Shown: positions 17,215 to 35,232 of the stretch, in pieces
Layout: each line of letters opens with the position of its first letter
How positions within the stretch are numbered: position 1 is the stretch's first letter
Assembly (NCBI GenBank): GCA_031291415.1
Contig: JARLJB010000008.1
Coordinates: 1 to 38,489 of the forward strand
DNA length: 38,489 nt
Direction of reading: 5' to 3'
Origin: Telmatospirillum sp.
Lineage (GTDB): Bacteria > Pseudomonadota > Alphaproteobacteria > Rhodospirillales > Magnetospirillaceae
The notes under the pieces: generated by a model
Told to the model about the DNA's origin: nothing
The model's input: the letters and a program-made list of their open reading frames with translations, nothing else
Databases searched by the model: none
Program-made: the position numbers and the translations under genes

Positions 17215-19920
17215 ATGAACGATCCAAGATCCCTTCGCATTCTCGTCATGAGCACACTGGCTTTCACCATTTGTTTCGCCGTCTGGTCGGTCTTCTCCAT
17301 CATCGGCATCGGCATCAAGCAGCAGCTCGGCCTGGACGACACCGAATTCGGCCTGCTGATCGGAACGCCGATCCTCAGCGGCTCGCTGATTCGTCTGGCG
17401 CTCGGAGTCTGGACCGACCGCTACGGAGGCCGCGCCATATTCCCTCTGGTGATGCTGGCCGGGGCCGCGGCGACGTTCCTGCTGTCTTACGCCACCAGCT
17501 ATCCGATGATGCTGTTGGCTGCGCTCGGGGTCGGCATCGCCGGCGGTTCTTTCGCCGTCGGCATCGCCTACGTTTCGCGCTGGTATCCGAAGGAACGGCA
17601 GGGCACAGCCCTTGGCATCTTCGGCATGGGCAATGTCGGCGCCGCCGTCACCAAACTGTTGGCGCCGCTGGTCATGGTCGCCTTCGGATGGGCGATGGTG
17701 GCGCAGCTCTGGGCCGCCGCCCTCTTCATCATGGCGATCGCCTTTTGGGTCACCACGTCGGATGATCCAGTGCAGCGCGCCCGACGCGCCGGTACCGCCG
17801 AGGCCTTGTCGCTGGCCGAGCAACTTGCCCCTCTCGCCGATGTCAGGGTCTGGCGTTTCGCCGGTTACTATTTCTTCGTCTTCGGCGGTTTTGTCGCCCT
17901 GGCGCTGTGGTTGCCGCGTTTCTACGTCGGGGCCTATCATCTCGACGTGGTCACGGCCGGCGTTCTCGGCGCGGCCTACTCCATCCCGGGCAGCCTGTTC
18001 CGGGTCTATGGCGGCATCCTCTCCGACAAGATCGGCGCGCGCCGCGTCATGTACTGGGCCTTTGGCGCCGGCGTGCTCTGCACCTTCCTGCTGTCCTATC
18101 CGGCGACCGACTACGTCGTGCATGGCATCAAAGGCGACATCAATTTCAGCTTCGGGCTGGGATTCGTGCCCTTCACCATCATCACCTTCGTCCTCGGCTT
18201 CTTCATGGCGATCGGTAAAGCCGCGGTCTATCGGCACATTCCCGTCTACTATCCCGATCACGTCGGCCCGGTCGGCGGCGCCGTCGGCATGATCGGCGGA
18301 CTCGGCGGCTTCGTGCTGCCCATCGCCTTCGGCCTGATGAACGATCTGACCGGATTGTGGACCAGCTGCTTCATGCTGCTGTTCCTCATCGCCGTGGTGA
18401 ACCTGGCGTGGATGCACCGCAGCATTCTGCGGACGGAACGATCGACATCCGCCTCCAATCGCCGCTTCCTGCCGGAGTTGCAGCCGCAAGGAGCGGTTCT
18501 GACCGAATGGTCGCCGGAAAGCGCAGACTTCTGGGCGCGGACCGGACGACGGATCGCCAATCGCAATCTGTGGATCTCAATACCCAGTCTGCTGTTGGCC
18601 TTCGCCGTCTGGATGGTGTGGTCGGTAGTTATCGTGAACCTTCCGGCGATCGGTTTTGCCTTCTCGCCCGATCAGCTTTTCTGGCTGGCGGCGCTGCCCG
18701 GATTGACGGGCGCCCTGCTGCGCGGCTTCTACGCCTTCATGGTGCCGATCTTCGGCGGTCGGACCTGGACCACGTTCTCCACCGCCTCGCTGCTGGTGCC
18801 GGCCATCGGCATCGGCCTGACCGTGCAGCACCCGGAGACGCCCTACACCCTGTTTCTCATCCTGGCACTGCTCTGCGGCCTCGGCGGCGGCAATTTCGCC
18901 TCGTCGATGGCCAATATCAGCTTCTTCTTTCCAAAAGCGGGCAAGGGCCAGGCATTGGCGCTCAATGCAGGCCTCGGCAATCTCGGCGTGTCGGTGGTGC
19001 AGTTCCTGGTGCCCGTCGTCATCACCGCCGGCATTTTCGGAGCCTTTGGCGGTGAACCGCAGACCATCGTCGTCGCCGGCGCCCCCCAACAACTATGGCT
19101 GCAAAATGCCGGTTTCATCTGGGTTCCGCTCATCCTCGCCGCCACCGTCGCCGCCTGGTTCGGCATGAACGACATTGCCTCGGCGAAGGCGTCCTTCGCC
19201 GATCAGGCGGTAATCTTCAAGCGCAAGCACACCTGGATCCTGTGCTGGCTGTATTCAGGCACCTTCGGTTCCTTCATCGGCTATTCGGCCGGCTTTCCGC
19301 TGCTGACCAAGGTGCTTTTCCCGGCGATGAACCCGGTCGCCTTCGCTTTCCTCGGTCCTCTGGTGGGCGCCGCCAGCCGGTCTCTCAGCGGCTGGATGGC
19401 CGATCGCTGGGGCGGTGCGCGCGTCACCATTTGGGTCTTCGCCGTCATGATCGCCGCGGTTGCCGGTGTCATGTTCTTCGTCGGCATCAAGGATCAGCCG
19501 AACGCCTTCTGGGGTTTCCTCGGCATGTTCCTGCTGCTTTTCGCGGCAAGCGGCGTCGGCAATGCCTCGACCTTCCAGATGATGCCGGCCATTTTCGCGA
19601 CACTCCTGCAACGCAAGGCCGCCGGACGTGGAGCCGAGGCGCTCGCCGCCGCGCAACGCGATGCCGCCAAGGAAGGTGCCGCCGTGCTCGGTTTCACCTC
19701 GGCTGTGGCCGCGATCGGCGCCTTCTTCATTCCCAAGAGCTTCGGAAGCGCAATTGCCGCAACCGGCGGTCCCGAGGCCGCCCTGATCGGGTTCATCGTC
19801 TTCTACGTCAGCTGTCTCCTGCTGACCTGGTGGTACTACACCCGCCGTCAGGCCGAGGTGCGGCTAACGGGAACGACCGAGACCGTCCATCCGGAACAAT
19901 CCGCCGCCGCGACACGCTGA
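17215..19920 (+). CDS. narK: Fused NarK1-NarK2 nitrate/nitrite transporter
   Basis: A 901-residue inner-membrane protein made of two complete major-facilitator domains (about 1-430 and 460-880). In characterised fusions the NarK1 half is a nitrate/proton symporter that starts nitrate respiration and the NarK2 half a nitrate/nitrite antiporter. Each half shows its signature: GGSFAVGIAYVSRWYP and GGILSDKIGARR in the first, GGGNFASSMANISFFFP with NAGLGNLG, and SGWMADRWGG, in the second. ATG 17215 is chosen because AGAGG lies 9 bases upstream; earlier in-frame starts add a Pro/His-rich leader. narG follows after 12 bases. Confidence 0.93.
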   Translation: MNDPRSLRILVMSTLAFTICFAVWSVFSIIGIGIKQQLGLDDTEFGLLIGTPILSGSLIRLALGVWTDRYGGRAIFPLVMLAGAAATFLLSYATSYPMMLLAALGVGIAGGSFAVGIAYVSRWYPKERQGTALGIFGMGNVGAAVTKLLAPLVMVAFGWAMVAQLWAAALFIMAIAFWVTTSDDPVQRARRAGTAEALSLAEQLAPLADVRVWRFAGYYFFVFGGFVALALWLPRFYVGAYHLDVVTAGVLGAAYSIPGSLFRVYGGILSDKIGARRVMYWAFGAGVLCTFLLSYPATDYVVHGIKGDINFSFGLGFVPFTIITFVLGFFMAIGKAAVYRHIPVYYPDHVGPVGGAVGMIGGLGGFVLPIAFGLMNDLTGLWTSCFMLLFLIAVVNLAWMHRSILRTERSTSASNRRFLPELQPQGAVLTEWSPESADFWARTGRRIANRNLWISIPSLLLAFAVWMVWSVVIVNLPAIGFAFSPDQLFWLAALPGLTGALLRGFYAFMVPIFGGRTWTTFSTASLLVPAIGIGLTVQHPETPYTLFLILALLCGLGGGNFASSMANISFFFPKAGKGQALALNAGLGNLGVSVVQFLVPVVITAGIFGAFGGEPQTIVVAGAPQQLWLQNAGFIWVPLILAATVAAWFGMNDIASAKASFADQAVIFKRKHTWILCWLYSGTFGSFIGYSAGFPLLTKVLFPAMNPVAFAFLGPLVGAASRSLSGWMADRWGGARVTIWVFAVMIAAVAGVMFFVGIKDQPNAFWGFLGMFLLLFAASGVGNASTFQMMPAIFATLLQRKAAGRGAEALAAAQRDAAKEGAAVLGFTSAVAAIGAFFIPKSFGSAIAATGGPEAALIGFIVFYVSCLLLTWWYYTRRQAEVRLTGTTETVHPEQSAAATR

Positions 19921-19932
19921 CAGGATCGCATC

Positions 19933-22900
19933 ATGAGTCACTTTCTCGATCGTCTCGCTTTCTTTCGCAAAAACATCGCCACCTTTTCCGGCGACCATGG
20001 CGTGGTCACCAACGAAGACCGGCAATGGGAAAACGGTTATCGCGCCCGCTGGCAGCACGACAAGATCGTGCGCTCGACCCACGGGGTGAATTGCACCGGG
20101 TCCTGCAGTTGGAAAATTTACGTCAAGGGCGGCATCGTCACCTGGGAGACGCAGCAGACCGACTATCCGCGTACGCGCCCGGACCTGCCCAACCACGAGC
20201 CCCGCGGCTGCGCCCGCGGCGCCAGTTATTCCTGGTATCTCTACAGCGCCAACCGGGTGAAGCACCCGTTGATCCGGCGCAGGCTGGCGGAACTCTGGCG
20301 CGCCGAACGGGCGACCAAGGCCCCGGTCGAAGCCTGGGCAGCCATCGTCGAGGATCCGGTAAAGGCGCAATCCTACAAGAAGATCCGGGGACTTGGCGGC
20401 TTTATCCGGGCGAAATGGGACGAAGTCGAAGAGATCATCGCCGCCGCCAATGTCTACACCACGAAGAAATACGGCCCCGACCGCATCGCCGGCTTTTCGC
20501 CGATTCCCGCCATGTCGATGGTTTCCTACGCGGCCGGCAGCCGCTATCTGTCGCTGATCGGCGGCGTCTGCATGAGTTTCTACGACTGGTATTGCGATCT
20601 GCCGCCCGCATCGCCCCAGACCTGGGGCGAACAGACCGACGTGCCGGAAAGCGCCGACTGGTACAATTCCACCTTTCTCCTCCTCTGGGGCTCTAACGTA
20701 CCGCAGACAAGGACGCCCGACGCCCATTTCTATACCGAGGTCCGCTACAAAGGCGCCAAGTCGGTGGTCATTTGTCCGGACTACAGCGAAGCGGCGAAAT
20801 TCGCCGACCTCTGGCTGCATCCGAAACAGGGAACCGACGCGGCGCTGGCCATGGCCATGGGTCACGTCATCCTCAAGGAATTCCATCTCGCCGGCCACAG
20901 CGCCTACTTCGAGGACTATTGCCGCCGCCTGACCGACATGCCGACGCTGGTGGTTTTGGACAAACGGGGCGACGCCTATGTTCCCGGCCGCACACTGCGG
21001 GCGGCCGATCTCGATGACGCCCTCGACCAGACCAACAATCCCGCCTGGAAAACCCTGGCCTTCGATCGCGCCGACGGCTCGCTGGTCGTGCCGAACGGCG
21101 CGATCGGCTTCCGCTGGGGCGAAAGCGGCAAATGGAATATCGAAGAGAAGGACGCCCGGGACGGCCGGGACGCGCCGCTGGTTTTGTCGCTTGCCGAGAC
21201 CCGGGACGCGCTGGTGCCGGTGGCCTTTCCCTATTTCGGCGGCAAGGCGCCGGAGTCCTTCCATGCCACCAGCCACAGCGACGTCACGGTGCGCCAACTG
21301 CCGGTACGCAAGGTGATGACCCGGAGCGGCGAAGTCCTGGTCGCCACCGTCTTCGATCTGCTTGCCGGCAATTACGGCATCGACAGGGGTTTCGGCGGCG
21401 GCAATGTGGCGTCCAGCTATGACGACGACGTCCCTTACACACCGGCCTGGGCCGAAGCGGTAACCGGCGTCAGACGCGAACACATCATCACGGTGGCCCG
21501 CCAGTTCGCCGCGAACGCCGACAAAACGCATGGCAAATCCATGGTCATCCTCGGGGCCGGGCTCAATCACTGGTACCACATGGATATGATCTACCGGGGG
21601 ATCATCAATCTTCTGATGATGTGCGGCTGCATCGGTCAATCCGGTGGCGGCTGGTCGCACTATGTCGGTCAGGAAAAGCTCCGGCCGCAGACGGGGTGGA
21701 CCGCGCTGGCCTTCGCCCTCGACTGGAACCGCCCGCCGCGTCAGATGAATTCCACCTCGTTCTTCTATGCCCATAGCTCGCAATGGCGCTACGAGAAGCT
21801 CGCCCCGTCGGAAATCCTCTCACCGCTCGCCGACGCCGATGATTACCCACGCAGCCTGATCGACTACAACGTCAAGGCCGAACGCATGGGCTGGCTGCCG
21901 TCAGCCCCGCAGCTCGACACCAATCCCCTGCGGATTGCCGCCGCCGCCGAGGCGGCGGGAAAAGACGTGCCGGCCTATGTCGCCGAAAGCCTGGTGTCGG
22001 GTGCTCTGAAATTCGCAGCGGAAGACCCGGACGCCCCGGCCAATCATCCACGCAATCTGTTCGTCTGGCGTTCCAATCTCCTGGGCGCCTCCGGGAAAGG
22101 CCACGAGTACTTCCTCAAATATCTGCTCGGCACCGATCACGGCGTGCTGGGACGGGATCTTGGACAGGAGGACGGGACCAAACCGGAAGAGGTCCGTTGG
22201 CATGACGAGGCGCCGACCGGCAAACTCGATTTGCTGGTGACGCTCGACTTCCGCATGTCGACCACCTGTGTCTATTCCGACATCGTGCTGCCGACCGCGA
22301 CCTGGTATGAAAAGCACGATCTCAACACGTCGGACATGCATCCCTTCATCCACCCGCTTTCGGCGGCGGTCGATCCCGCCTGGGAAGCCCGGACGGATTG
22401 GGACATCTACAAGAACATCGCCCGCAAATTCTCCGAAGTCGCCAAAGGCCATCTCGGACGCGAGCGCGACGTGGTGCTGACGCCCATCTTGCATGACACG
22501 GCCGGCGAGCTCGCGCAGCCGCTGGACGTCGCCGACTGGAAACTGGGCGAATGCCCGCCGATCCCGGGCCAAACCATGCCTTCGGTAACGGTGGTCGAAC
22601 GCGACTATCCGGAAACCTTTGCCAAATTCACGTCCCTCGGTCCGCTGATGGAAAGTCTTGGCAATGGCGGCAAGGGCATCGGCTGGAAGACGGAGAAGGA
22701 GGTAGCGTTCCTGAAACAGCTCAACGGCGTCGTCACCGCGCCGGGCGCCGGCCTGGGACGCGCGAAGATCGAGAGCGATATCGACGCCGCCGAGATGATC
22801 CTGAGCCTCGCCCCGGAAACCAATGGCGAAGTCGCGGTCAAGGCTTGGGAAGCTCTCGGCAAGATGACCGGCCGCAACCACACCCATCTCGCCCGCGCCC

Positions 22901-23685
22901 GCGAGGACGACAAGATCCGCTTCCGCGACATTCAGGCGCAACCGCGCAAGATCATCTCGTCACCGACCTGGAGCGGCCTCGAAAGCGAACATGTCAGCTA
23001 CAACGCCTGCTACACCAATGTGCATGAGCTGATCCCCTGGCGCACCCTGACCGGCCGGCAGCAGTTCTACCAGGATCACAAATGGATGCGGGGCTTCGGC
23101 GAAGCGCTCGCCGTCTATCGGCCGCCCATCGACACCAAAACGGTGGCTCCGATCCGCGAGCGCTTTGCCGACGGCCGCAAATCACTGGTGCTGAACTTCA
23201 TCACGCCACACCAGAAATGGGGCATTCACAGCACCTATACGGACAATCTTCTCATGCTGACCCTCTCGCGCGGCGGGCCGATCGTCTGGATCAGCGAAGT
23301 GGACGCGCAAAGCGTCGGGCTCGTCGACAACGATTGGATCGAAGTCTTCAACGCCAACGGAGCCCTGACGGCGCGCACGGTGGTCAGCCAGCGTGTGCCG
23401 GTCGGCATGTGCATGATGTATCACGCCCAGGAGAAGACCGTGAATGTGCCGGGAAGCGAGATCACCGGCAAACGTGGCGGCATCCACAATTCGGTGACGC
23501 GGATCTGCCCCAAACCGACTCACATGATCGGCGGCTACGCCCAGCTTTCCTACGGCTTCAATTACTACGGCACGGTCGGCGCCAACCGGGACGAATTCGT
23601 CGTCATCCGCAAGATGGACAAGATCGACTGGCTCGAAGGTCCGCGCGCTCCGGCGGCGGCTCTGGTGGAGGGAGACCGGTCATGA
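19933..23685 (+). CDS. narG: Respiratory nitrate reductase alpha subunit NarG
   Basis: A 1250-residue catalytic subunit that reduces nitrate to nitrite at a Mo-bisMGD centre on the cytoplasmic side of the membrane. The FS0 iron-sulphur ligands are His50, Cys54, Cys58 and Cys93. The Mo ligand is Asp222 in FYDWYCDLPP. The N-terminus is nearly colinear with E. coli NarG, and length is normal. There is no twin-arginine signal; MSHFLDRLAFFRKN resembles the vestigial leader of NarG. The ATG is preceded by AGGA. The stop codon overlaps the narH start (ATGA), so translation is coupled. Confidence 0.98.
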   Translation: MSHFLDRLAFFRKNIATFSGDHGVVTNEDRQWENGYRARWQHDKIVRSTHGVNCTGSCSWKIYVKGGIVTWETQQTDYPRTRPDLPNHEPRGCARGASYSWYLYSANRVKHPLIRRRLAELWRAERATKAPVEAWAAIVEDPVKAQSYKKIRGLGGFIRAKWDEVEEIIAAANVYTTKKYGPDRIAGFSPIPAMSMVSYAAGSRYLSLIGGVCMSFYDWYCDLPPASPQTWGEQTDVPESADWYNSTFLLLWGSNVPQTRTPDAHFYTEVRYKGAKSVVICPDYSEAAKFADLWLHPKQGTDAALAMAMGHVILKEFHLAGHSAYFEDYCRRLTDMPTLVVLDKRGDAYVPGRTLRAADLDDALDQTNNPAWKTLAFDRADGSLVVPNGAIGFRWGESGKWNIEEKDARDGRDAPLVLSLAETRDALVPVAFPYFGGKAPESFHATSHSDVTVRQLPVRKVMTRSGEVLVATVFDLLAGNYGIDRGFGGGNVASSYDDDVPYTPAWAEAVTGVRREHIITVARQFAANADKTHGKSMVILGAGLNHWYHMDMIYRGIINLLMMCGCIGQSGGGWSHYVGQEKLRPQTGWTALAFALDWNRPPRQMNSTSFFYAHSSQWRYEKLAPSEILSPLADADDYPRSLIDYNVKAERMGWLPSAPQLDTNPLRIAAAAEAAGKDVPAYVAESLVSGALKFAAEDPDAPANHPRNLFVWRSNLLGASGKGHEYFLKYLLGTDHGVLGRDLGQEDGTKPEEVRWHDEAPTGKLDLLVTLDFRMSTTCVYSDIVLPTATWYEKHDLNTSDMHPFIHPLSAAVDPAWEARTDWDIYKNIARKFSEVAKGHLGRERDVVLTPILHDTAGELAQPLDVADWKLGECPPIPGQTMPSVTVVERDYPETFAKFTSLGPLMESLGNGGKGIGWKTEKEVAFLKQLNGVVTAPGAGLGRAKIESDIDAAEMILSLAPETNGEVAVKAWEALGKMTGRNHTHLARAREDDKIRFRDIQAQPRKIISSPTWSGLESEHVSYNACYTNVHELIPWRTLTGRQQFYQDHKWMRGFGEALAVYRPPIDTKTVAPIRERFADGRKSLVLNFITPHQKWGIHSTYTDNLLMLTLSRGGPIVWISEVDAQSVGLVDNDWIEVFNANGALTARTVVSQRVPVGMCMMYHAQEKTVNVPGSEITGKRGGIHNSVTRICPKPTHMIGGYAQLSYGFNYYGTVGANRDEFVVIRKMDKIDWLEGPRAPAAALVEGDRS

Positions 23686-25214
23686 AGATCCGCGCCCAGA
23701 TCGCCATGGTGCTGAACCTGGACAAATGCATCGGCTGCCACACCTGCTCGGTGACCTGCAAGAACGTGTGGACCAGCCGCGACGGCGTCGAATACGCCTG
23801 GTTCAACAATGTCGAGACCAAACCGGGAATTGGCTATCCCAAGGACTGGGAGAATCAGAAGAAGTGGAACGGCGGCTGGACCCGCAACAAAAACGGCAAG
23901 CTTACGCCGCGGTTGGGCGGAAAATTCCGGGTACTGGCCAAGATCTTCATGAATCCGGATCTACCGGAAATCGATGACTATTACGAACCCTTCACCTTCG
24001 ACTACGCCCATCTGCAGACTGCCGGATTGAGCGAGGCGGCGCCGACCGCCCGCCCCCGCTCGGTGATCACCGGCCAGCGAATGGAGAAGATCGAATGGGG
24101 GCCGAACTGGGAGGAGATTCTCGGCGGCGAATTTTCGAAACGCGGCAAGGACCAGAACTTCGAGGCGATCGAGAAGGAAATCTACGGTCAGTTCGAGAAC
24201 ACCTTCATGATGTACCTGCCCAGGCTCTGCGAGCATTGTCTCAATCCGGCCTGCGTCGCCGCCTGCCCGTCCGGCTCGATCTATAAGCGCGAGGAAGATG
24301 GCATCGTCCTGATCGACCAGGATAAATGCCGTGGTTGGCGCATGTGCGTCAGCGCCTGCCCCTACAAGAAGATTTACTATAACTGGGAAAGCGGCAAGGC
24401 GGAGAAATGCATCTTCTGCTATCCGCGCATCGAGGTCGGCCAGCCCACGGTCTGCTCGGAAACCTGCGTCGGCCGGATCCGCTATCTCGGTGTCATGCTC
24501 TATGACGCCGACCGCATCGAACAGGCGGCAAGCGCCCGGAGCGATGCGGACCTCTATCAGGCGCAGCTCGATATCTTCCTCGATCCGCACGACCCCGAGG
24601 TCATCACCCAGGCGCGCGCCGATGGCATCCCGGAGGCATGGCTGATCGCCGCCGCCCAGTCTCCCGTCTACAAAATGGCGATCGACTGGAAGATCGCCTT
24701 CCCGCTGCATCCGGAATACCGGACCTTGCCGATGGTCTGGTACGTGCCGCCGCTCTCGCCGATCCAGGCCAAGGCCGAAGCCGGCCAACTTGGCACCAAC
24801 GGCATCATCCCGGACGTCTCGAAGCTGCGCATCCCGCTCAGATATCTGGCCAACATGCTGACCGCCGGCGACGAGAAACCGGTGAAACTGGCACTCGAAC
24901 GACTGCTCGCCATGCGCGCCTACATGCGGGCCCGCCATGTCGATGGGCTCGAGGCCAAGGATGTTCTCGATCAGGTCGGTCTCGATCGGGCATTGGTCGA
25001 GGACATGTACAAGATCCTGGCCATCGCCAACTACGAGGACCGCTTCGTCATCCCGACGACGCATCGCGAATATGCCGAGAACGCCTTCGATCTGAAAGGT
25101 TCCTGCGGCTTCAGTTTCGGCAACGGCTGTTCAAGCGGCGCATCCGATTTCGGCCTCTTCGGCAAACCCAGGCATCAGCATGGCGTCAAGACTCCGACGG
25201 AGGAGGTGAAATGA
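23682..25214 (+). CDS. narH: Respiratory nitrate reductase beta subunit NarH
   Basis: A 510-residue electron-transfer subunit linking NarI haems to NarG. Four iron-sulphur clusters can be read: Cys16/19/22/26, Cys183/186/191/195, Cys216/222/226 with Trp219 in place of a fourth ligand (the [3Fe-4S] site), and Cys243/246/258/262. The start overlaps the narG stop by four bases and has GGAGGGAG upstream. The stop overlaps narJ in the same way, with AGGAGG serving narJ inside the narH 3' end. Confidence 0.98.
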   Translation: MKIRAQIAMVLNLDKCIGCHTCSVTCKNVWTSRDGVEYAWFNNVETKPGIGYPKDWENQKKWNGGWTRNKNGKLTPRLGGKFRVLAKIFMNPDLPEIDDYYEPFTFDYAHLQTAGLSEAAPTARPRSVITGQRMEKIEWGPNWEEILGGEFSKRGKDQNFEAIEKEIYGQFENTFMMYLPRLCEHCLNPACVAACPSGSIYKREEDGIVLIDQDKCRGWRMCVSACPYKKIYYNWESGKAEKCIFCYPRIEVGQPTVCSETCVGRIRYLGVMLYDADRIEQAASARSDADLYQAQLDIFLDPHDPEVITQARADGIPEAWLIAAAQSPVYKMAIDWKIAFPLHPEYRTLPMVWYVPPLSPIQAKAEAGQLGTNGIIPDVSKLRIPLRYLANMLTAGDEKPVKLALERLLAMRAYMRARHVDGLEAKDVLDQVGLDRALVEDMYKILAIANYEDRFVIPTTHREYAENAFDLKGSCGFSFGNGCSSGASDFGLFGKPRHQHGVKTPTEEVK

Positions 25215-25849
25215 AGACATTCAAGGTTCTTTCCGTCCTGCTGAGCTATCCGGAGTCCGAACTGTCCGATCAGCTGGGGAGCCTGTCCGAGGTCCTGGAC
25301 AGCGAGGCGCTCCTGCCCATCGAGCATCGCCAGGCGCTTCAATGCCTGCTGGACATCTTGCGGGTGCTCGATCCGCTCGACGCCCAGGAACGCTATGTCG
25401 CGTTATTCGACCGCAATCGATCGCTGTCCTTGCATCTCTACGAGCATATCCACGGCGAGTCGCGCGACCGCGGACAGGCGATGGTCCAGCTTGCCGAGAT
25501 CTACCGTCTGCACGGCGTCGAAATCAGCGCCGCGGAATTGCCCGACTATCTTCCCCTTTTTCTCGAATTTCTCTCCCTGCTGCCGATCAAAGCGGCGGCA
25601 TCGCTGCTCGCCGAAGCCGTCCATGTCGTGGCCGCCTTGCGCGAAAAGCTGGAAGCGCGCGGCAGCGCCTACGCCGTCGTCATGGGGGCGATCGAGGCGC
25701 TGGCCGCCAAGCCGGCCGAGCGCGCCGCCGTCGACGAAGTCCTGGCGATGCTGAAACCCGAAGCGGACAGCCTCGATGCCCTCGACGGCCAGTGGGAAGA
25801 GGAAGCGGTGCGTTTCACGGCGGCCGGTGCCGCAAGCTGCGCGGGGTAG
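25211..25849 (+). CDS. narJ: Nitrate reductase assembly chaperone NarJ
   Basis: A 212-residue all-helical chaperone of the NarJ/TorD class that keeps NarGH open for molybdenum cofactor insertion and delays membrane docking. It begins MKTFKVLSVLLSYPE and has the conserved segments RYVALFDRNRSLSLHLYEH and LPDYLPLFLEFLSLLP. It is not part of the final complex. AGGAGG lies 4 bases before ATG 25211, which overlaps the narH stop. Confidence 0.96.
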   Translation: MKTFKVLSVLLSYPESELSDQLGSLSEVLDSEALLPIEHRQALQCLLDILRVLDPLDAQERYVALFDRNRSLSLHLYEHIHGESRDRGQAMVQLAEIYRLHGVEISAAELPDYLPLFLEFLSLLPIKAAASLLAEAVHVVAALREKLEARGSAYAVVMGAIEALAAKPAERAAVDEVLAMLKPEADSLDALDGQWEEEAVRFTAAGAASCAG

Positions 25850-25853
25850 TGCG

Positions 25854-26561
25854 ATGATCGATTATATCAACCAGGCGCTTTTCGGGATTTATCCCTACAT
25901 CGCGCTCAGCATCTTCACGATCGGCTCGGTCGTCCGCTTCGATCGCGAGCAATACACTTGGCGCTCGGGGTCGAGCCAGCTTTTGCGCCGCAAGCTGCTG
26001 TTCACCGGCAGCAACTGCTTTCACATCGGTGTGCTGGCCATCTTCGGCGGGCATCTGGTCGGCTTACTGACGCCGCACGAGGTCTATACGGCGATGGGCC
26101 TCAGCGTCGAGGCGAAACAGTTGATGGCGATGATCATCGGCGGTGCCTTCGGCACATTATGCTTCGTCGGCATGACGTTGCTGATTTACCGCCGGCTGGT
26201 CGATCCGCGCATCCGCGCCACCAGCAGCGTCATGGACATCGCCATTCTTCTCATTTTGTATGCGCAGCTCACCCTGGGCTTGTCGTCGATTTTCGTCTCC
26301 GCCCGGCACCTTGACGGGTCGGAAATGCTGTTGCTCGCCGAATGGGCTCAACGCATCGTCACCTTGCGCGGCGGCGCGGCCGATCTGCTCGCTGCCGTCC
26401 ATCCGATCTTCAAGCTGCATATCGTCCTCGGGATGACGATCTTCCTGCTGTTCCCGTTCTCCCGCCTGGTTCATATCTGGTCGGCGCCGATCGGCTACGT
26501 CGGCCGGTCGTACCAAATCGTCCGCCGGCGTGGCGGCCTGTCGGCGACGCGGGGGCGATGA
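25854..26561 (+). CDS. narI: Respiratory nitrate reductase gamma subunit NarI (cytochrome b)
   Basis: A 235-residue membrane protein with five hydrophobic segments. It takes electrons from quinol on the periplasmic side and passes them to NarH through two b haems. The haem ligands are His57 and His67 in the second helix region and His189 and His207 near the C-terminus, matching the E. coli spacing. It starts 4 bases after narJ and its stop overlaps the ppiC-like start. Confidence 0.97.
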   Translation: MIDYINQALFGIYPYIALSIFTIGSVVRFDREQYTWRSGSSQLLRRKLLFTGSNCFHIGVLAIFGGHLVGLLTPHEVYTAMGLSVEAKQLMAMIIGGAFGTLCFVGMTLLIYRRLVDPRIRATSSVMDIAILLILYAQLTLGLSSIFVSARHLDGSEMLLLAEWAQRIVTLRGGAADLLAAVHPIFKLHIVLGMTIFLLFPFSRLVHIWSAPIGYVGRSYQIVRRRGGLSATRGR

Positions 26562-27346
26562 TGGACACGATCGTCGTCAACGGCACGGAAATCCCGCCGC
26601 AGGCCATCGCCGCCGAGATGCAATACCATCCGGCGCCAACCCGGGAACAGGCCTGGACCGAGGCCGCCGTCGCCCTGGTCATCCGGCAGTTGCTGCTGCA
26701 GGAGGCGGCCCGCCACGGCATCGTCTTGGACGCCGACACGGACGAGGAGGCCGACAGGGAAGAAGCCGTCATCCAGGAACTGCTCGCCAGGGAGGTTGCG
26801 ACGCCGGACGCCGACGAAGCGACGTGCCGCCGCTATTGGTCGGCCAATCCGGCGAAGTTCACCACCCCCGACGTCTACGAGGCCGCCCATATCCTGTTTC
26901 CGGCATCGCCCGACGATCCGCCGTCTTATGAGGCGGCCAAACGAGCCGCCACCGAGACGCTGGCCTTGCTGCAACAGGATCCCGGGCGGTTCGCGGCCCT
27001 GGCCCGGGAACGCTCGGCCTGCCCGTCCGCCGCCGCCGAAGGTCGTCTGGGCCAACTGAGCCGCGGCGATCTGGTTCCGGAGATCGAGACCTTTGTCGTC
27101 GCCTTGCAGGAAGGGCAGATCTGTCCGGTCCCGATCGCCACGCGCTACGGCTATCACGTCTTGCGCGTCGACCGCTTCGTGGCCGGATCGGTCTTGCCGT
27201 TCGAGGCGGCCGCCCCGCGCGTCGAACGGCTTCTGGCAAGCCAGTCCTGGCAACGCGGCGTCAGCCAGTATCTGCGCGTTCTGGCCGGGCGCGCCCGGAT
27301 CGAGGGCCTGGTCATCGACGCGGCCCTGACACCGTTGGTGCAGTGA
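26558..27346 (+). CDS. PpiC-type peptidyl-prolyl isomerase of the nar operon
   Basis: A 262-residue parvulin-type rotamase. An N-terminal helical part (about 1-110) precedes a PpiC domain (about 110-215; [37 protein letters not shown]). No signal peptide is visible, so it should be cytosolic, unlike most parvulins of this size. A gene of this kind lies between narI and moaA1 in the Pseudomonas nar operon, and NifM, a relative, helps mature nitrogenase iron protein. A role in NarGH folding is therefore a reasonable inference. Both ends overlap their neighbours, so expression is coupled to nar. Confidence 0.9.
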
Positions 27347-28338
27347 TGCCGATGATCGACCGCCAGGGCCGCAAGATTACCTATCTTCGCGTGTCTGTGA
27401 CCGACCGTTGCGATCTGCGCTGCGTTTACTGCATGGCCGAGGACACGCGATTCCTGCCCAAGGCGGAGGTTCTGACGATCGAGGAGTTGGACCGGCTGTG
27501 CCGGGTCTTCGTCCGCAAAGGCATCCGCAAGATCCGTTTGACCGGCGGCGAACCTTTGGTCCGGCGCAACGTCATGGCTTTGATCGCCGGCATGGGAGAC
27601 CTCGTGGCGGACGGCTCTCTCGACGAACTGACCTTGACCACCAACGGCACGCATTTGGCCCGACATGCCGAGGCCTTGGCCGCCGCCGGCATGAGACGCA
27701 TCAATGTCTCGCTCGACACGCTCGACCCCGTGCGGTTCCAGGGCCTCACCCGCTGGGGCCGCCTGGATCAGGTGATGAATGGCATCATGGCCGCCAAAGC
27801 GGCCGGGCTGGCCGTGAAAATCAATGCCGTGGCGCTGAAAGGCGTCAACGAGGACGAATTCGACCGTTTGGTGGATTGGTGCGGACGGCAGGTGTTCGAC
27901 TTGTGCCTGATCGAGACCATGCCGCTGGGAGAAATCCACGCCGACCGGATCGATCAATATCTGCCTCTGTCCGAGGTGCGCGCCCGCCTCGAGCGGAATT
28001 GGACGCTCAAGGCGACCGACTACCGCACGGGCGGACCGGCCCGCTATGTGGAGGTGGCCGAAACCGGAAGGCGTCTCGGTTTCATCACGCCGATGTCGCA
28101 CAATTTCTGCGAAAGCTGCAACCGTGTGCGGATCACCTGCTCCGGCACGCTCTTCCCATGCCTGGGCCAGGAGGAGGCCATCGATCTTAAGCAGCCTCTC
28201 AGAAGCAGCGAATCGGATCTGCCGCTGGAGCTGGCGATCGATCGCGCGGTCGATAGAAAGCCCGAAGGTCATGACTTTGTGATTGAGCGCGACGGCGTTC
28301 CGACTGTGCACCGCCCCATGAGTGTGACGGGCGGATGA
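27346..28338 (+). CDS. moaA: GTP 3',8-cyclase MoaA
   Basis: A 330-residue radical SAM enzyme that carries out the first step of molybdenum cofactor synthesis from GTP. The SAM cluster motif is Cys22-x3-Cys26-x2-Cys29 (CDLRCVYC), followed by RLTGGEPL. The second cluster lies in the C-terminus ([13 protein letters not shown] and the following FPCLG). The chain ends in the functional Gly-Gly tail (VTGG). Its ATG shares one base with the preceding stop codon. Placement at the end of the nar operon suggests a copy that raises cofactor supply when nitrate reductase is made. Confidence 0.96.
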
Positions 28339-28650
28339 GACTGGCAAGCTGCCGTCGACCTCGCCATAATACCATATTAAAATTATTTGTTATTTCCAGA
28401 TTCATCGCCGATGAGATCCACCTGGACGATACACATGGAAACCATTGATTGCTAATATTAGTTGAACAATACCATAATATTATGCTGAAATCAGGAAATC
28501 GGTGATCAACCTGACTCTCTTTGGTCGGCGCCTGAAAATAGTTGATAAATTTTCTGTGATATTTGCGGTGAGCTTGACGAAAGGCAAGGCCGCCGGCTGA
28601 TCCGTCGCCCTAACCTGCAACTGCTTTTCTGCACGGGAGGACCCCAACCG
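28339..28650. other. AT-rich intergenic region between moaA and norC
   Basis: No gene is seen in these 312 bases. They are clearly more AT-rich than their surroundings. A 12-bp palindrome CATAATATTATG lies at 28473-28484, a TTGATAAAT half site at 28542, and a near-consensus FNR-type box at 28574-28587. The norCB promoter is expected here. Confidence 0.55.
28574..28587 (+). promoter_or_regulatory. Near-consensus FNR/DNR-type box upstream of norC
   Basis: TTGACGAAAGGCAA differs from TTGAC-N4-GTCAA at one position. Its centre is 70 bases before the norC start. A transcript starting 41.5 bases downstream (about 28622) would have TAACCT (28611-28616) as a plausible -10 element. Confidence 0.5.
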
Positions 28651-29094
28651 ATGGCCGAACATCTTACGAAATCGGCAGCGAGAAACATCTTCTACGGCGG
28701 CTCTCTGTTCTTCTTCGTCATCTTCGTCGGATTGGTCGCGCAGAGTTTCCACTACGCCACCACCGTCTCGGAGACGGATCCGATCACTCCGGCTGTCGCG
28801 CATGGCAAGCGGATCTGGGAACGGCACGCCTGTTTCGACTGTCACACGCTGTTTGGCGAAGGAGCCCGCTTCGCCCCCGAGCTCGGCCATGTCTGGCAAC
28901 GCTATGGCGGCGTCGACGACCCGGATGGAACGCGCGAGCGCCTGAAGGACTGGATCAAGTCGCAGCCGAGCAGGGTCGAAGGCCGCCACCAGATGCCGCA
29001 TTTCGATCTGAGCGAAACCGAACTCGATGATCTGGTCGAATTCCTGCGTCACGCCAGCACCATCAATACCCAGAACTGGCCGCCGAAAGGCTGA
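28651..29094 (+). CDS. norC: Nitric oxide reductase subunit C (NorC)
   Basis: A 147-residue membrane-anchored c-type cytochrome. A single N-terminal transmembrane helix (about 13-33) precedes one haem site, Cys61-x2-Cys64-His65 (CFDCH). Met115 (HQMPHF) is the likely axial ligand. It receives electrons from periplasmic cytochrome c and passes them to NorB. The ATG has GGGAGG 9-10 bases upstream. norB follows after 21 bases. Confidence 0.97.
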   Translation: MAEHLTKSAARNIFYGGSLFFFVIFVGLVAQSFHYATTVSETDPITPAVAHGKRIWERHACFDCHTLFGEGARFAPELGHVWQRYGGVDDPDGTRERLKDWIKSQPSRVEGRHQMPHFDLSETELDDLVEFLRHASTINTQNWPPKG

Positions 29095-29115
29095 GCCGAC
29101 AAGGGAAGATATGAC

Positions 29116-30459
29116 ATGAAATACGAATCGCAGAACGTCGCCCGGCTTTATTTCACCGGCGCCATGGTGCTGTTCGCCTTGCAGATCGTGTTCGGTCTGT
29201 TGGGGGCGACGCTTTATGTCGTCCCCACCGCTTTGCCGGATTTCCTGCCGTTTTCCGTGGTTCGGATGATCCATACCAATGCGCTGATCATCTGGCTGCT
29301 GATGGGATTTTTCGGCGCGACCTATTATCTGCTGCCTGAGGAAACCGAAACCGAGCTGCACAGTCCGTTCCTCGCCAAATTGCAGTTCTGGCTGTTTTTC
29401 GGCGCCGCCGTCGCCGCCGTTGTCGGTTATCTGTTCGGCTATTACGACGGTCGCTCCTATCTCGAGCAGCCGATGTATATCAAGGTGGGCATCGTCGTCG
29501 TCGCCCTGATCTTCCTCTACAACTGCTCGATGACCGTGCTGAAGGGCCGCAAGACGGTGATCAGCAACATCCTGCTGCTTGGCCTGTGGGGTATCGCGGT
29601 CTTCTTCCTGTTCGCCTTTTACAACCCGGCCAACATCGTGCTCGACAAGATGTTCTGGTGGTGGGTGGTGCATCTGTGGGTCGAAGGAGTCTGGGAACTG
29701 GTCATGGCGGCGATCCTCGCCTTCCTGATGATCAAACTGACAGGCGTCGATCGCGAGGTGATCGAGAAATGGCTTTATGTGATCGTCGGCCTGGCGCTGT
29801 TCTCCGGTATCCTGGGCACCGGCCATCACTATTATTGGATCGGTCTGCCGGCCTACTGGCAATGGATCGGCAGCGTCTTCTCGGCATTGGAGATCCTGCC
29901 TTTCTTCGCCATGGTGATCTTCACTTTCACCATGGTCTACAAAGGCGGCCGCGACCATCCCAACAAGGCCGCTTTGCTATGGTCCCTGGGCTGTTCGGTA
30001 ATGGCCTTCTTCGGAGCCGGAGTCTGGGGCTTCATGCACACGCTGGCGCCGATCAACGAATACTCGCATGGCACCCAGGTCACCGCGGCGCATGCGCATC
30101 TGGCTTTCTTCGGAGCCTATGCGATGGTCAATCTGGCGATGATCACCTATGCCATGCCGCAATTGCTCAAACGCCCGCCCTACAACCAGATCCTCAACAT
30201 GTGGAGTTTCTGGTTGATGACCTCGGGTGTCGCCTTCATGACCTTCGCGCTGACCTTCGCCGGCGTGGTGCAGACTCATCTCGAACGGGTGCTCGGCATG
30301 TCCTACATGGAAGTGCAGGACCAGTTGGGCCTGTTCTATTGGATGCGCCTTGGTGCCGGTGGGGTGGTGGCCTTGAGCGTTCTCATGTTCCTCGGCTCCA
30401 TTCTTCTGCCCGGACGTGAGCCAAAGGCCGGCCGGATCGGCCTGCAGGCAGCGGAATAG
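29116..30459 (+). CDS. norB: Nitric oxide reductase subunit B (NorB)
   Basis: A 447-residue haem-copper-oxidase-like membrane protein with about 12 helices that reduces two NO to N2O. Visible ligands are His53 and His328 for low-spin haem b, His326 for haem b3, and His186, His237 and His238 for the non-haem iron. Glu190 and Glu194 (HLWVEGVWEL) are the conserved active-site acids of cNOR. The long quinol-binding N-terminal extension of qNOR is missing, which agrees with the separate norC. Confidence 0.98.
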   Translation: MKYESQNVARLYFTGAMVLFALQIVFGLLGATLYVVPTALPDFLPFSVVRMIHTNALIIWLLMGFFGATYYLLPEETETELHSPFLAKLQFWLFFGAAVAAVVGYLFGYYDGRSYLEQPMYIKVGIVVVALIFLYNCSMTVLKGRKTVISNILLLGLWGIAVFFLFAFYNPANIVLDKMFWWWVVHLWVEGVWELVMAAILAFLMIKLTGVDREVIEKWLYVIVGLALFSGILGTGHHYYWIGLPAYWQWIGSVFSALEILPFFAMVIFTFTMVYKGGRDHPNKAALLWSLGCSVMAFFGAGVWGFMHTLAPINEYSHGTQVTAAHAHLAFFGAYAMVNLAMITYAMPQLLKRPPYNQILNMWSFWLMTSGVAFMTFALTFAGVVQTHLERVLGMSYMEVQDQLGLFYWMRLGAGGVVALSVLMFLGSILLPGREPKAGRIGLQAAE

Positions 30460-30492
30460 TATCAAGTTTCGGTGATCGCAACCGATCACCGA
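30460..30492 (+). repeat. Diverged ACCAAGTCTCGATGAG element behind norB / possible terminator
   Basis: TATCAAGTTTCGGTGA (30460-30475) differs at three positions from the repeat seen at 11121. A 10-bp perfect stem forms from TCGGTGATCG (30469-30478) and CGATCACCGA (30483-30492). It begins directly at the norB stop, so it may end or weaken the norCB transcript. Confidence 0.6.
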
Positions 30493-30568
30493 CCCTCAAT
30501 CGCCGGGCAGGACGCCTCCGCGTCCCTTGGCTACGCTCGCATAAGCTCGCGGGCGCGCAATGCGCCAC

Positions 30569-30603
30569 CCAAGTCTCGATGAGTCCTTCTCATCGAGACT
30601 TGG
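30569..30603. repeat. ACCAAGTCTCGATGAG element, full hairpin copy between norB and norQ
   Basis: CCAAGTCTCGATGAG (30569-30583) pairs perfectly with 30589-30603 across a 5-base loop. It is nearly identical to the palindrome at 7452-7489, 23 kb away. A further 8-bp hairpin (30622-30629 with 30637-30644) lies in the norQ leader. Confidence 0.85.
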
Positions 30604-30668
30604 AATAACCCACCAGGAGCCCGTCTCCTCGCCGGAAGGAGACGTGCCGGGCCCAAGGATCAGGCTTC

Positions 30669-31478
30669 ATGACCAGACCTTTCGCGGTAACCGATTTGGC
30701 GCCAGCCGTTCCGTTCTATTTGCCCATTGGCAACGAATGCACGTTGTTCGAACACGCCTATCGGCGGCACCTGCCTTTGTTGCTGAAAGGGCCGACCGGT
30801 TGCGGCAAAACCCGCTTCGTCAGCCATATGGCGGCGCGACTGGGGCGCCCCCTGTTCACAGTCGCCTGTCATGACGACCTTACCGCCGCCGATCTGACCG
30901 GCCGCTTTCTGCTGCAGGGCGGCGACACCGTGTGGTCGGACGGCCCGCTGACGCGCGCCGTGCGCGAAGGCGGCATCTGTTATCTGGACGAGGTTGTCGA
31001 AGCCCGCAAGGATGTCACCGTGGTCCTTCATCCGCTCACCGACGACCGCCGCATCCTGCCGCTGGAACGAACCGGCGAGACATTGCGGGCGCCCGACGAC
31101 TTCATGTTGGTCGTCTCGTACAATCCCGGCTATCAGTCGCTGCTCAAGGCGCTGAAACCCTCGACCCGCCAACGCTTCGTCGCCGTCGAATTCGATTTTC
31201 CCCCGGCCGACACCGAGGTCCGGGTGGTGGCCGGCGAAAGCGGCCTGGCTCCCGAGCGTTGCCGGACCCTGGTGGCGCTGGCGGGACGCCTGCGCGAATT
31301 GAAAGGACATGATCTGGAGGAAGGGGTTTCGACCCGTCTGCTGGTCTATTGCGCCAGTCTGATGGCCGATGGTGTCGGGTTGGAGGAGGCGGTGATGTGT
31401 TGCCTGATCGAACCGCTGACGGACGACCCCGATGTGAAGAAGGGACTCGTCGCCCTGGCCCGGATCGTCCTCGGATAA
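30669..31478 (+). CDS. norQ: NO reductase activation ATPase NorQ
   Basis: A 269-residue MoxR-type AAA+ ATPase (NorQ/CbbQ group). Walker A is GPTGCGKT (41-48) and Walker B is in ICYLDEV (about 103-109); a sensor region [11 protein letters not shown] follows. NorQ with the VWA protein NorD is needed for insertion of the non-haem iron in NorB. ATG 30669 has AAGGA 9 bases upstream. It is 209 bases from norB, unusually far and filled with repeats, but only 7 bases from norD. Confidence 0.94.
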
Positions 31479-31485
31479 CCGGGCG

Positions 31486-33402
31486 ATGACCGGTTTCCTG
31501 GAACTCGAGGAGCAGGTCGGCAAACGCTGGCATCGGCTGGTCGGTGGAGCGAAATCCTGGCAGAGCTTCCCCAACGCCGCTGTGACGCTCGATTCGCTCA
31601 AAGGTCCTTTGGCGGTGTTTTTCCGCGGCCTCGGCGGCGACGCCGGTGTCGTGCTGGCCGGCGGCCAAGCCGCCTCATCCGGCCACCGTCTGTCCTGGCG
31701 CCAACGTCTGGGCAGCGATGCCGAACGCCTGGAGCAGCCGCGTCGCGATGGACAGACCCTCGCTTTCCCGCCGGTTCTCGACCTGTTGCCATCGGCCGAA
31801 CTCAATCGTTCTCTCTATTTCTGGCTGGCGACCTTCTTCGCCCATCTGCCGTTGCGGGCGCCGGAAATGCCCGTCGATCCTTTGCAGGCCGATCTCCAGT
31901 TTCTCCGCCGGGCCCATCGGACCAGCCTGCGAACTCTTGCCGCCTGCCCTGGGATCAAATCCACCTTCGATGCCTTGCGGGCGGAACTGGCGGCGCTTCG
32001 TCCCTGCCGCGATCTTCCGCCGTTCGAAACCGAAGTGGAAAAGACGGTGTGCCATATGCTGGACGATAACGCCGATGGCGGCCGCTTCTGGCCGGTGGTC
32101 GCGGGAACGCAAGTCTGCGGACAGGCGGCCCCGGCGCGCTACAAAACGTTTCTCCCGGTGCCGTTGTGGGGCGATGCGATCGATGTTGCGCCGTGCAGAT
32201 CGCCGCCTGATCCGGACGACTCCGCCGGTTCCGGGTCGGCAGACGCGCGGGATGGCAGAACCCGCAAGGCTCAAAGACGTTCCACCGACCAGCCCGAACG
32301 CAAGGACAGTCTGATCCTCAATCGATTCGAAAAGATCCTGACGCTGATCGAATCTCTCAACATCAACCGCGCGGTGGACGACGACGACGAGGATAGCGCC
32401 AGGAAGGCGCTCGACGACGCCGAGGAGATCAGCCTGTCAGCGCATCGACGGAAGCCGGCGACACGTCTCGCCTTCGACCTCGATCTGCCGCCGGAAGCAG
32501 TGGACGTCGAAGCACTGGCGGCGGCGCTCACCTATCCCGAATGGCATTATCGGAAAAAAGCCTACCTCCCCGATTATTGCCGGGTGATCTGCACGACGGC
32601 GTCGGAAGAGGGGGAGACCTGGCAACCGAGTCCCGAGACGCACCGCAGAATCCGCCAGGTACGGCGTCAGTTCGAAGCCTTGCGTCCGCGCCATGAGATT
32701 TTACGAGGTCAGTTGGACGGCCCGGAACTCGACCTTGAAGCCCTGATCCGGGCGAGATCGGATCTCAGGGCCAGCGGTGTCGGATCCGACCGCGTCTATC
32801 AGGCGTCACGCCGGCAAGCCCGGGACCTGGCGGTCCTGCTGTTGGTCGATGTCTCGCTGTCGACCGACGGATGGATCGACAATCGCCGCATCCTCGATGT
32901 CGAGAAGGAAGCCCTGGCCGTGCTGGCGAACGGCCTGGCGGCCTGCGGCGACGACCACGCGATCCTGACCTTCACCTCCCGCAGGCGCGATTGGGTGCGC
33001 CTCGAAAGCGTCAAGGACTTTGACGAGCCCTTTTCCACCCTGATAACCCGCCGCATCGCGGCGTTGAAACCGGGCTTCTACACCAGGATTGGAGCCGCCT
33101 TGCGCCATGCCGTCAAACGCCTGGACGAACGGCCCAATCGCCATCGCCTGATCATCTTGCTGACCGACGGCAAGCCGAACGACATCGACCACTATGAAGG
33201 GCGTTACGGTATCGAAGATACGAGACGCGCCGTGCAGGAAGCGCGCCGCGCCGGTGTCGCCGTATTCGGCGTCACCATCGATCGTCGGGCGCAGGACTAT
33301 TTCCCCACCCTGTTCGGTCGTGGCGGTTATGCCATCATCAATCATATCGCCCGCTTGCCGTCGGCCTTGCCGACCCTCTATCGGCATCTGGTCGGTTCCT
33401 GA
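31486..33402 (+). CDS. norD: NO reductase activation protein NorD (VWA domain)
   Basis: A 638-residue protein partnering NorQ. The C-terminal von Willebrand A domain carries the metal-binding MIDAS residues in DVSLST (about 455) and a downstream Thr and Asp (TRIGAAL, LLTDGKPND). The N-terminal two thirds is the helical NorD region with an acidic low-complexity linker (DDDDEDSARKALDDAEE). It is cytoplasmic and presumably docks NorQ to NorB. The end lies 38 bases from the convergent norF. Confidence 0.94.
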   Translation: MTGFLELEEQVGKRWHRLVGGAKSWQSFPNAAVTLDSLKGPLAVFFRGLGGDAGVVLAGGQAASSGHRLSWRQRLGSDAERLEQPRRDGQTLAFPPVLDLLPSAELNRSLYFWLATFFAHLPLRAPEMPVDPLQADLQFLRRAHRTSLRTLAACPGIKSTFDALRAELAALRPCRDLPPFETEVEKTVCHMLDDNADGGRFWPVVAGTQVCGQAAPARYKTFLPVPLWGDAIDVAPCRSPPDPDDSAGSGSADARDGRTRKAQRRSTDQPERKDSLILNRFEKILTLIESLNINRAVDDDDEDSARKALDDAEEISLSAHRRKPATRLAFDLDLPPEAVDVEALAAALTYPEWHYRKKAYLPDYCRVICTTASEEGETWQPSPETHRRIRQVRRQFEALRPRHEILRGQLDGPELDLEALIRARSDLRASGVGSDRVYQASRRQARDLAVLLLVDVSLSTDGWIDNRRILDVEKEALAVLANGLAACGDDHAILTFTSRRRDWVRLESVKDFDEPFSTLITRRIAALKPGFYTRIGAALRHAVKRLDERPNRHRLIILLTDGKPNDIDHYEGRYGIEDTRRAVQEARRAGVAVFGVTIDRRAQDYFPTLFGRGGYAIINHIARLPSALPTLYRHLVGS

Positions 33403-34310: not shown

Positions 34311-34386
34311 GCGCTTTTCCTGCCCGGTTTATCCGGTCGTTTCGAATCACTGGGGGCATCAAAGCACTCAGGCGGGCGCCATGACC

Positions 34387-34400
34387 TTGACGCAAATCAA
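34387..34400. promoter_or_regulatory. FNR/DNR-type box between norE and a divergent small gene
   Basis: TTGACGCAAATCAA matches TTGA(C/T)-N4-ATCAA perfectly. The centre (34393.5) is 83 bases from the norE start. A start site 41.5 bases away on the minus strand would leave a 42-base leader for norE. Being symmetric, it can also activate rightwards, where a Cys-rich small gene starts at 34523. Confidence 0.85.
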
Positions 34401-34406
34401 GAGAGC

Positions 34407-34526
34407 ATGCCGCTCATCAACGACTTGCCCGTCTGCCGGAAAACCGCTCACGCGAGCCGACGCATCATGGCACAATCGGACCAGACGCCGATCACGACGT
34501 CGATGTTGGTAAGGGTCGCCGGATGA
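34407..34526 (+). CDS. Possible leader or upstream small ORF
   Basis: A 39-codon frame (starting MPLINDLPVCRKTAHASRR) ends in TGA that overlaps the start of the 34523 gene as ATGA. An internal ATG at 34467 would give only MAQSDQTPITTSMLVRVAG. The overlap is of the kind used for translational coupling, but no ribosome site is clear and no family is recognised. It could be chance. Confidence 0.2.
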   Translation: MPLINDLPVCRKTAHASRRIMAQSDQTPITTSMLVRVAG

Positions 34527-34768
34527 GTGGCTGGGGATGCCCCCATGAGATCATGGGCGTTTGTCAGCGGTTGAACGGATTGAGCTGCGATCCCGGCCGC
34601 AAGGGGTGCGTGCTGCATGACCGCTTCCGCTTCAGCAATGAGGCCAAGAATCCCGGCCATCCGCCGCCTCGAAGGACGGCACGGCTCCTCCCACGAAGAA
34701 GACGGACGACTGACGTTTCGTCCTTCTCCCCTCATCGCTCTTTGACGACCTTGATGATCTCGGCCTGA
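34523..34768 (+). CDS. Small Cys-rich protein of unknown function beside norEF
   Basis: An 81-codon gene whose first 40 residues look highly ordered: Cys6-Pro-His-Glu, Cys14, Cys22-Asp-Pro-Gly and Gly-Cys29-Val-Leu, then FRFSNEAKN. Four cysteines and a histidine in so short a chain suggest a zinc or iron-sulphur site. AAGGG lies 7 bases before ATG 34523. I do not recognise a named family. The last 35 residues are Pro/Arg-rich, look non-conserved and overlap the convergent flavin reductase gene by 37 bases, so the tail may be read-through after a late mutation. The FNR-type box 122 bases upstream suggests anaerobic or NO-linked expression. Confidence 0.5.
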   Translation: MSGWGCPHEIMGVCQRLNGLSCDPGRKGCVLHDRFRFSNEAKNPGHPPPRRTARLLPRRRRTTDVSSFSPHRSLTTLMISA

Positions 34769-35232
34769 TAGACGGTGTGATAATCCTTTTCAGGGTAGAA
34801 CTCGCCATCCAGGTTCTGGTTGACGAAATCGGTCGGCTTAAGCTGCATGCGGCAAAGCTTCCTGGCGACGACGGTCAGGTAGGATTCCTTGAAGGTTGGA
34901 ATGCCGTCGATGAAGGTAGGCGTCAGTCCGGCCAACGCGACCTTGTCGACATCGCGGCCGGATTTGCTCCCGAGGATGGCGAGCGACTTCCGGTATTGCC
35001 TTGTGTAGAAGCTGACGGTGAACTCGTTGAATTTTTCGATGAACCCGTATGTGTAGCGGACCGGGCGCACCATAACGGTGACGATGGGGCGCTCCCAGAT
35101 GAAGCCCAGCGCGCCCCAACTGATTGTCATCGTATTGAACTTCTTTTTATCCCCGGCGGTGAGGAGTGCCCACTCGTGACCCAGGCCCTGGAAGGCGTGT
35201 GTCACCGCATTGTCGACAACATCAGACGACAT
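34732..35232 (-). CDS. Flavin reductase family protein
   Basis: A 166-residue protein with the FMN-binding split-barrel fold (PF01613-like). Marks include MTISWGALGFIWERPIVTVM (about 35-54), RYTYGFIEKFNEFTVSFY and LAILGSKSGRD. Members reduce FMN with NAD(P)H or carry electrons to oxygenases. Some relatives occur beside NO-detoxifying or rubredoxin-like proteins, so a link to the Cys-rich neighbour is possible but unproven. Start ATG 35232 has AAGGAGGA about 10 bases upstream, a strong site. Confidence 0.88.
   Translation of the reverse strand: MSSDVVDNAVTHAFQGLGHEWALLTAGDKKKFNTMTISWGALGFIWERPIVTVMVRPVRYTYGFIEKFNEFTVSFYTRQYRKSLAILGSKSGRDVDKVALAGLTPTFIDGIPTFKESYLTVVARKLCRMQLKPTDFVNQNLDGEFYPEKDYHTVYQAEIIKVVKER

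Follow-up and report, generated by a model that had tools for sequence, protein, structure and literature searches.

A conserved family of tiny four-cysteine proteins with a member gene beside norEF in Telmatospirillum sp.

A small cysteine-rich ORF that diverges from norE in a 38,489-nucleotide stretch of Telmatospirillum sp. DNA (contig JARLJB010000008.1, hereafter the window) belongs, as judged by homology, to a widespread, conserved family of tiny four-cysteine proteins. We consider it probable that this family is a conserved orphan microprotein of low-oxygen bacteria, presumably holding one metal ion (zinc) and acting as a binding module, and that the window gene came to lie beside norEF by rearrangement. 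The family is unnamed in Pfam, NCBIfam, PHROGs and the PDB and occurs in magnetic bacteria, in iron oxidisers and in several denitrifiers. Given its small size, gene callers may miss it, as our own did in the window. Its members are tiny and occur once per genome, and culturable laboratory magnetospirilla probably have one, which makes the family easy to test. Should the family have a redox or NO role, it would supply a factor so far missing from micro-oxic metabolism; otherwise it would still be a conserved protein that is unstudied, as far as our searches of titles and abstract openings show.

The small gene and its family

The ORF (Table 1) begins MSGWGCPHE and runs on through a second cysteine to CDPGRKGCVL, with the elements CPHE, C, CDPG and KGCVL and the four cysteines C6, C14, C22 and C29 all lying within its first 40 residues, as an earlier, sequence-only reading of this DNA had described. 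That reading had looked to a transcript from 34435-34768. The ORF is real, but the starts of the relatives align at 34523, so that coding begins there and 34401-34522 is leader. Homology to the family covers only residues 1 to about 43, and past about residue 47 no relative is matched. Since this tail also overlaps the flavin reductase gene at its 3' end, as well as a hairpin resembling a terminator (34704-34723, minus strand), the 3' boundary of the small gene is doubtful. When the window was submitted to our own codon-usage gene-calling model, the small ORF was not called and a weak antisense ORF (34448-34660) was chosen instead, a candidate that was overruled by the homology and dN/dS of the small ORF. 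On homology, the small divergent ORF is a true gene.

Table 1 Features of the window around and related to the small gene
Feature	Position	Strand	Basis or remark
Small Cys-rich ORF	34523-34768	+	ATG at 34523, stop ends 34768, 81 codons
Conserved core, 47 codons	34523-34663	+	C6, H8, C14, C22, C29; homology to 60 aligned relatives; dN far below dS in ten close pairs
C-terminal tail, unconserved, doubtful as protein	34664-34768	+	Common to no relative; overlaps flavin reductase 3' end and terminator-like site
AAGGG, plausible ribosome-binding site	34511-34515	+	7 nt before ATG 34523; read from sequence
FNR/DNR-type box TTGACGCAAATCAA	34387-34400	.	Exact TTGAC-N4-ATCAA, N4 being GCAA
TTTGAT, -10-like hexamer	34358-34363	-	Faces norE; 33 bp from box centre; 4/6 to TATAAT
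norE, COX3-like, 188 aa	33744-34310	-	PF00510, E 8.4e-17
norF, COX4_pro, 99 aa	33441-33740	-	PF03626, E 2.7e-11
Flavin reductase-like protein, convergent with small gene	34732-35232	-	PF01613, E 2.3e-11
norC, norB, norQ, norD (norC and norB presumed from sequence)	28651-33402	+	Gene map; norQ AAA_5 and CbbQ_C domains, norD VWA domain
Presumed CRP/FNR-type regulator, candidate reader of boxes	16275-17024	-	Gene map

The genome scan gave at least 34 relatives of the small protein. Members are mostly 56-70 aa long and combine a rigid core of ~43 residues, with the consensus GWGCPHE-x4-C-x7-CDPGMKGCVLxGRFxF-x4-KN, with a variable, mostly charged tail. In an alignment of 61 rows, G3, W4, C6, C22, G25, G28 and C29 were invariant, and M1, S2, G5, H8, C14, M26, K27, L31, G33, R34, F35, K42 and N43 were conserved in at least 90% of rows. 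Homologues with conserved cysteines, which the sequence-only reading had left to be looked for, were thus found, and the four candidate metal-ligand cysteines are present throughout the family (C6, C22 and C29 in 61/61 rows, C14 in 60/61). H8 is likewise kept in 60 of the 61; the single exceptions are C14 to R in L016 and H8 to N in L092. The alignment leaves out one sequence cut at a contig end (L036), two whose core is identical to that of another row (L025, L031) and two with long extensions (L076, L082), and the duplicates L012 and L032 were dropped.

Eleven close pairs of relatives were named for dN/dS analysis, of which L075/L077 was uncomputable, its core being one residue shorter; the remaining ten gave dN of 0-0.07 against dS of 0.17-2.3. 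These codon comparisons show the family core to be under purifying selection. For the core of the window copy, dN was 0.18 against a dS of 1.27 in comparison with L066, and 0.24 against 1.45 with L069, dS being saturated with L067 and L068. Two residues, R26 and D33, are found in the window copy alone among the 61 rows (M stands at the first position in 56 rows and G at the second in 60), so that the window copy may be drifting.

Searches of Pfam, NCBIfam and PHROGs with each of the 61 members returned best E values of 0.14, 0.06 and 0.074, in every case from a single member. The family profile run against PDB sequences returned a best E of 1. All of these values are noise; the earlier remark that the protein fits no named family agrees with this. 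Among the papers listed, the titles and abstract openings searched by family motif strings and by topic contained nothing on this protein. Two AlphaFold2 models had mean pLDDT values of 62.6 and 59.0, a low confidence that makes them too poor to interpret and that may be of the kind that can occur with small metal-dependent folds.

Several divergent members were seen. In G024, close to the end of a contig, the family sequence L082 (123-467, minus strand) passes after ~37 residues into a stretch that we take to resemble the STAS type, the join falling around GRFTFAD; this may be a fusion or an assembly chimera. In two Chloroflexi MAGs (L034, 6001-6207, and L035, 6001-6195) the core is kept to about GCVL and the RF...KN part is not recognisable, so that the ancestral unit may have been the cysteine part; alternatively, these copies may be MAG contamination. 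The core, elsewhere rigid, is interrupted between C14 and C22 in the Magnetovibrio sequences L033 and L099 by an acidic-rich insertion of ~15 residues.

The FNR/DNR-type box and the genomic context

The perfect TTGAC-N4-ATCAA box that had been reported between norE and the divergent small gene is exact. Two such exact matches occur in the window where 0.04 are expected, the second being at 17100-17113 (minus strand) between the CRP/FNR-type regulator and narK. The looser TTGAY-N4-RTCAA pattern with at most one mismatch occurs 8 times against 2.58 expected, and a one-mismatch copy is found at 28574-28587, upstream of norC. Judged by these expectations, the box beside norE is a non-chance FNR/DNR-type box. 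Two exact TTGAY-N4-RTCAA boxes of FNR/DNR type, at 17078-17091 and 17100-17113, stand 22 bp apart, both between the CRP/FNR-type regulator (minus strand) and a long narK-like gene (plus strand).

In a class II FNR site the box centre is expected near -41.5. On the small-gene side, the best plus-strand hexamer 25-38 bp from the box centre has only 2/6 agreement with TATAAT; the TTTGAT hexamer (Table 1) has the right spacing on the norE side only, and the geometry of the box therefore fits norE and not the small gene. Upstream of the family genes, 65 regions including that of the window were scanned, L097 with its 15 upstream bases having been left out. An exact box within 300 bp was present in one of them, the window's own. 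One-mismatch boxes were present in 9 regions and two-mismatch boxes in 19, against 1.3 and 8.6 expected per 65 from mononucleotide shuffles and 3.1 and 15.4 from 573 same-length stretches elsewhere in the same loci, so that one-mismatch boxes upstream outnumber those elsewhere in the loci roughly threefold. Of the nine, three are a single sequence, GTGACGGTGATCAA, within a PhnA-like gene, four form two pairs from related genomes, and the two that stand alone belong to L013 (TTGACCAACCTCAA, 75 bp upstream) and L021. As a sequence count this is a mild excess, and it does not amount to a conserved box.

Genomic contexts were compared over 66 loci, the window and 65 others, with up to 8 kb taken on each side; the loci sum to 773,563 bases with a median of 12,129, many being shorter than 16 kb. 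L096 (G060), a true match missed by the motif search, was left out of this set. The norC, B, Q, D, E and F, flavin reductase, CRP/FNR, narG and SulP proteins of the window served as tblastn queries at E 1e-4. Within 8 kb, none of the 65 other loci had norB, norC, norE, norF, norQ or the flavin reductase, and none had a CRP/FNR regulator, narG or SulP within the up to 8 kb available. A norD-like match of 33.7% identity was found 7.3 kb away at one locus, and in G036 match positions place a cd1 gene about 5 kb from the family gene, nir genes being outside the tblastn query set. The sequence-only reading had the small gene made together with norEF and had raised the prospect of homologues beside nor or flavin reductase genes. 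Apart from the remote norD-like match, neither expectation was borne out as a family trait, the exact box being present in the window only and its geometry fitting norE. Among the loci seen, both the adjacency to norEF and the shared box look private to this one genome.

Neighbours within six genes on each side differ by lineage. The commonest were a ~470-aa protein (14/66 loci, at varying offsets), an ABC ATPase (11), a PhnA-like gene (10), an enoyl-CoA hydratase (8) and rsmA/pdxA-type genes (6), the names being those we presume from sequence. With contexts varying in this way and no neighbour fixed, the hypothesis of a conserved neighbour was ruled out. The flavin reductase of the window, searched at E 1e-15, matched one of 61 genomes, its own, and none of the 60 other relatives.

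Distribution and co-occurrence with denitrification genes

What we take to be narGHJI and norCBQD lie in one stretch of the window (16275-33402). A search of the whole host genome at E 1e-40 gave no match to a cd1-type (PF02239) or Cu (TIGR02376) nitrite reductase. The host would thus be a nitrate reducer with an NO reductase and without an NO-forming nitrite reductase recognised at that threshold.

Matches at E 0.01 were found in 39 of 61 relative genomes, a set that includes the window's own, and 37 were counted as carriers. The weak rows G037 and G048 were set aside; neither reaches E 1e-6 with the profile. On reading their sequences, the weak matches L002, L100 (G037) and L101 (a second match of G028) were rejected as family members. 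By profile search, 24 of 398 genomes sampled from the phylum carry the family, as do 53 of 199 from the order, where the match in G505 spans 20 residues close to the end of a contig (E 4e-8). Each genome has one strong match, and tblastn against the plasmid collection gave no family match. The distribution is patchy in Pseudomonadota, even between related genera, with the two distant copies in Chloroflexi MAGs besides; among the matches listed are Gallionella, Sideroxydans, Mariprofundus and Magnetovibrio, all of micro-oxic habits. The three full-size genomes of the window's genus (G001, G003, G004; a fourth, G002, is just 0.9 Mb) are without both the gene and norB, which is consistent with a joint gain in the window genome or a joint loss in them.

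Co-occurrence with denitrification genes was then counted, with p values that ignore kinship and are not tree-corrected; the norB relatives are 67-86% identical to the window's norB. Among the 61 relatives, norB, cd1-type (PF02239) or Cu nitrite reductase was present in 35/37 carriers against 11/24 non-carriers (p 2.5e-5). Within the host's bacterial family the figures were 27/28 against 2/9 (p 2.6e-5), with a nifH control at 21/28 against 5/9 (p 0.40). For the 24 relatives outside the host family, the denitrification genes gave 8/9 against 9/15 (p 0.19) whereas nifH gave 4/9 against 1/15 (p 0.047), and nifH also correlated with family presence over all 61 relatives (p 0.0016).

In the phylum sample, norB was found in 8/24 carriers, cd1 in 8/24 and either in 11/24, against either in 86/374 non-carriers (p 0.024). 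Taxonomic family f61, which we take as Zetaproteobacteria because its genomes G077 and G270 have proteins identical to those of Mariprofundus sp. KV and of MAG CG1_02_53_45, has 12 carriers and 14 genomes with a nor-like gene, a single genome having both, and no cd1 match; 11 of its 12 carriers are therefore without a nor-like gene and all 12 without cd1. Outside f61, 10 of the 12 carriers have norB or cd1. In the order sample norB accompanies 28/53 carriers and 16/146 non-carriers (p 2.8e-9). Within that sample, no carrier was found in family f26, although 8 of its genomes have norB, and f19 has 5 norB genomes without the family gene; f115 has 6 carriers without norB, and f17 has 4 without and 2 with. 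Both f17 and f115 thus include carriers that have norB as well as carriers that lack it. An obligate nor partnership was ruled out by the Zetaproteobacterial carriers without nor and the norB lineages without the family gene.

Proposed role and relation to known systems

We propose that the four cysteines, perhaps with H8, would hold one metal ion, most likely zinc, which would fold the core, and that the conserved W4, R34-F35 and K42-N43 may bind a protein or nucleic-acid partner. No signal peptide is evident by eye in the small protein, which would act in the cytoplasm as a small adaptor of benefit to bacteria living at low oxygen in redox gradients. The small gene could have come beside norEF via genome rearrangement or have been gained along with the nar-nor region, and the box would mainly drive norEF. 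Points that weigh against this proposal are the lack of the CxxC knuckles usual in zinc folds, the low-confidence models, the single exceptions at C14 and H8, the link of the family with denitrification genes among the host's relatives, the upstream excess of one-mismatch boxes and the residues R26 and D33 of the window copy.

This proposal overlaps with a reading that is independent of the metal and that we hold to be about evenly balanced: a general adaptor for low-oxygen or housekeeping functions (associated, for example, with the ribosome, RNA polymerase or a cofactor) with no specific NO link, the correlation with denitrification genes reflecting a shared micro-oxic lifestyle and descent. 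The single strong match per genome, the absence of a fixed neighbour, the micro-oxic genera among the relatives and the mixed carriers of f17 and f115 all speak for it, but the patchiness even among related genera is unlike that of core housekeeping genes. We think it rather doubtful that the window copy is a passenger in decay, acquired by this genome and left stranded between norE and the flavin reductase gene. Its altered core (R26 and D33), an unrelated tail overlapping a terminator-like site and an ORF not called by the codon-usage model would fit such decay; against it, the four cysteines, H8 and the start are all intact, and dN in the core stays well below dS in the comparisons with L066 and L069.

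A factor for NO or nitrosative stress, FNR/DNR-induced with norEF and using a Zn-thiolate site to sense or buffer NO or to repair nitrosylated targets, appears unlikely. The exact box between norE and the small gene, the excess of denitrification genes among carriers, seen also inside the host family with a nifH control that is not significant, the norB or cd1 genes of most phylum-sample carriers outside f61 and the norB excess in the order sample argue for it. On the other side stand the 65 other loci without norB, C, E, F or Q nearby, the lack of conservation of the exact box, the association outside the host family, which is not significant there for denitrification genes and is for nifH, the correlation of nifH over all 61 relatives, and the carriers and norB genomes that part company in f61, f26 and f17. 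An NO role is kept as a minority reading because carriage of the gene and denitrification genes are statistically linked within the host's bacterial family, but the carriers among Zetaproteobacteria and the lineages that have norB and lack the gene argue for a broader low-oxygen role. It is, to our mind, quite improbable that the family is a new single-metal thiolate microprotein that serves micro-oxic and denitrifying bacteria as a switch sensitive to NO or redox state, placed here under the FNR/DNR box of norEF and so exposing a link that is made at a distance elsewhere.

With respect to known systems, the favoured single-metal microprotein is adjacent in the window to the nor accessory genes norE, norF, norQ and norD, to which no sequence relation was seen, and is not adjacent to them in the 65 other loci, save for the one remote norD-like match. 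Small zinc-ribbon and rubredoxin-like Cys4 proteins are short and have four conserved cysteines, glycine-containing turns and CxxC knuckles. The family resembles them in being short, with four conserved cysteines, glycine turns and no other domain, and differs from them in lacking two CxxC (or CxxH) knuckles, its spacing being C-x7-C-x7-C-x6-C plus CxH.
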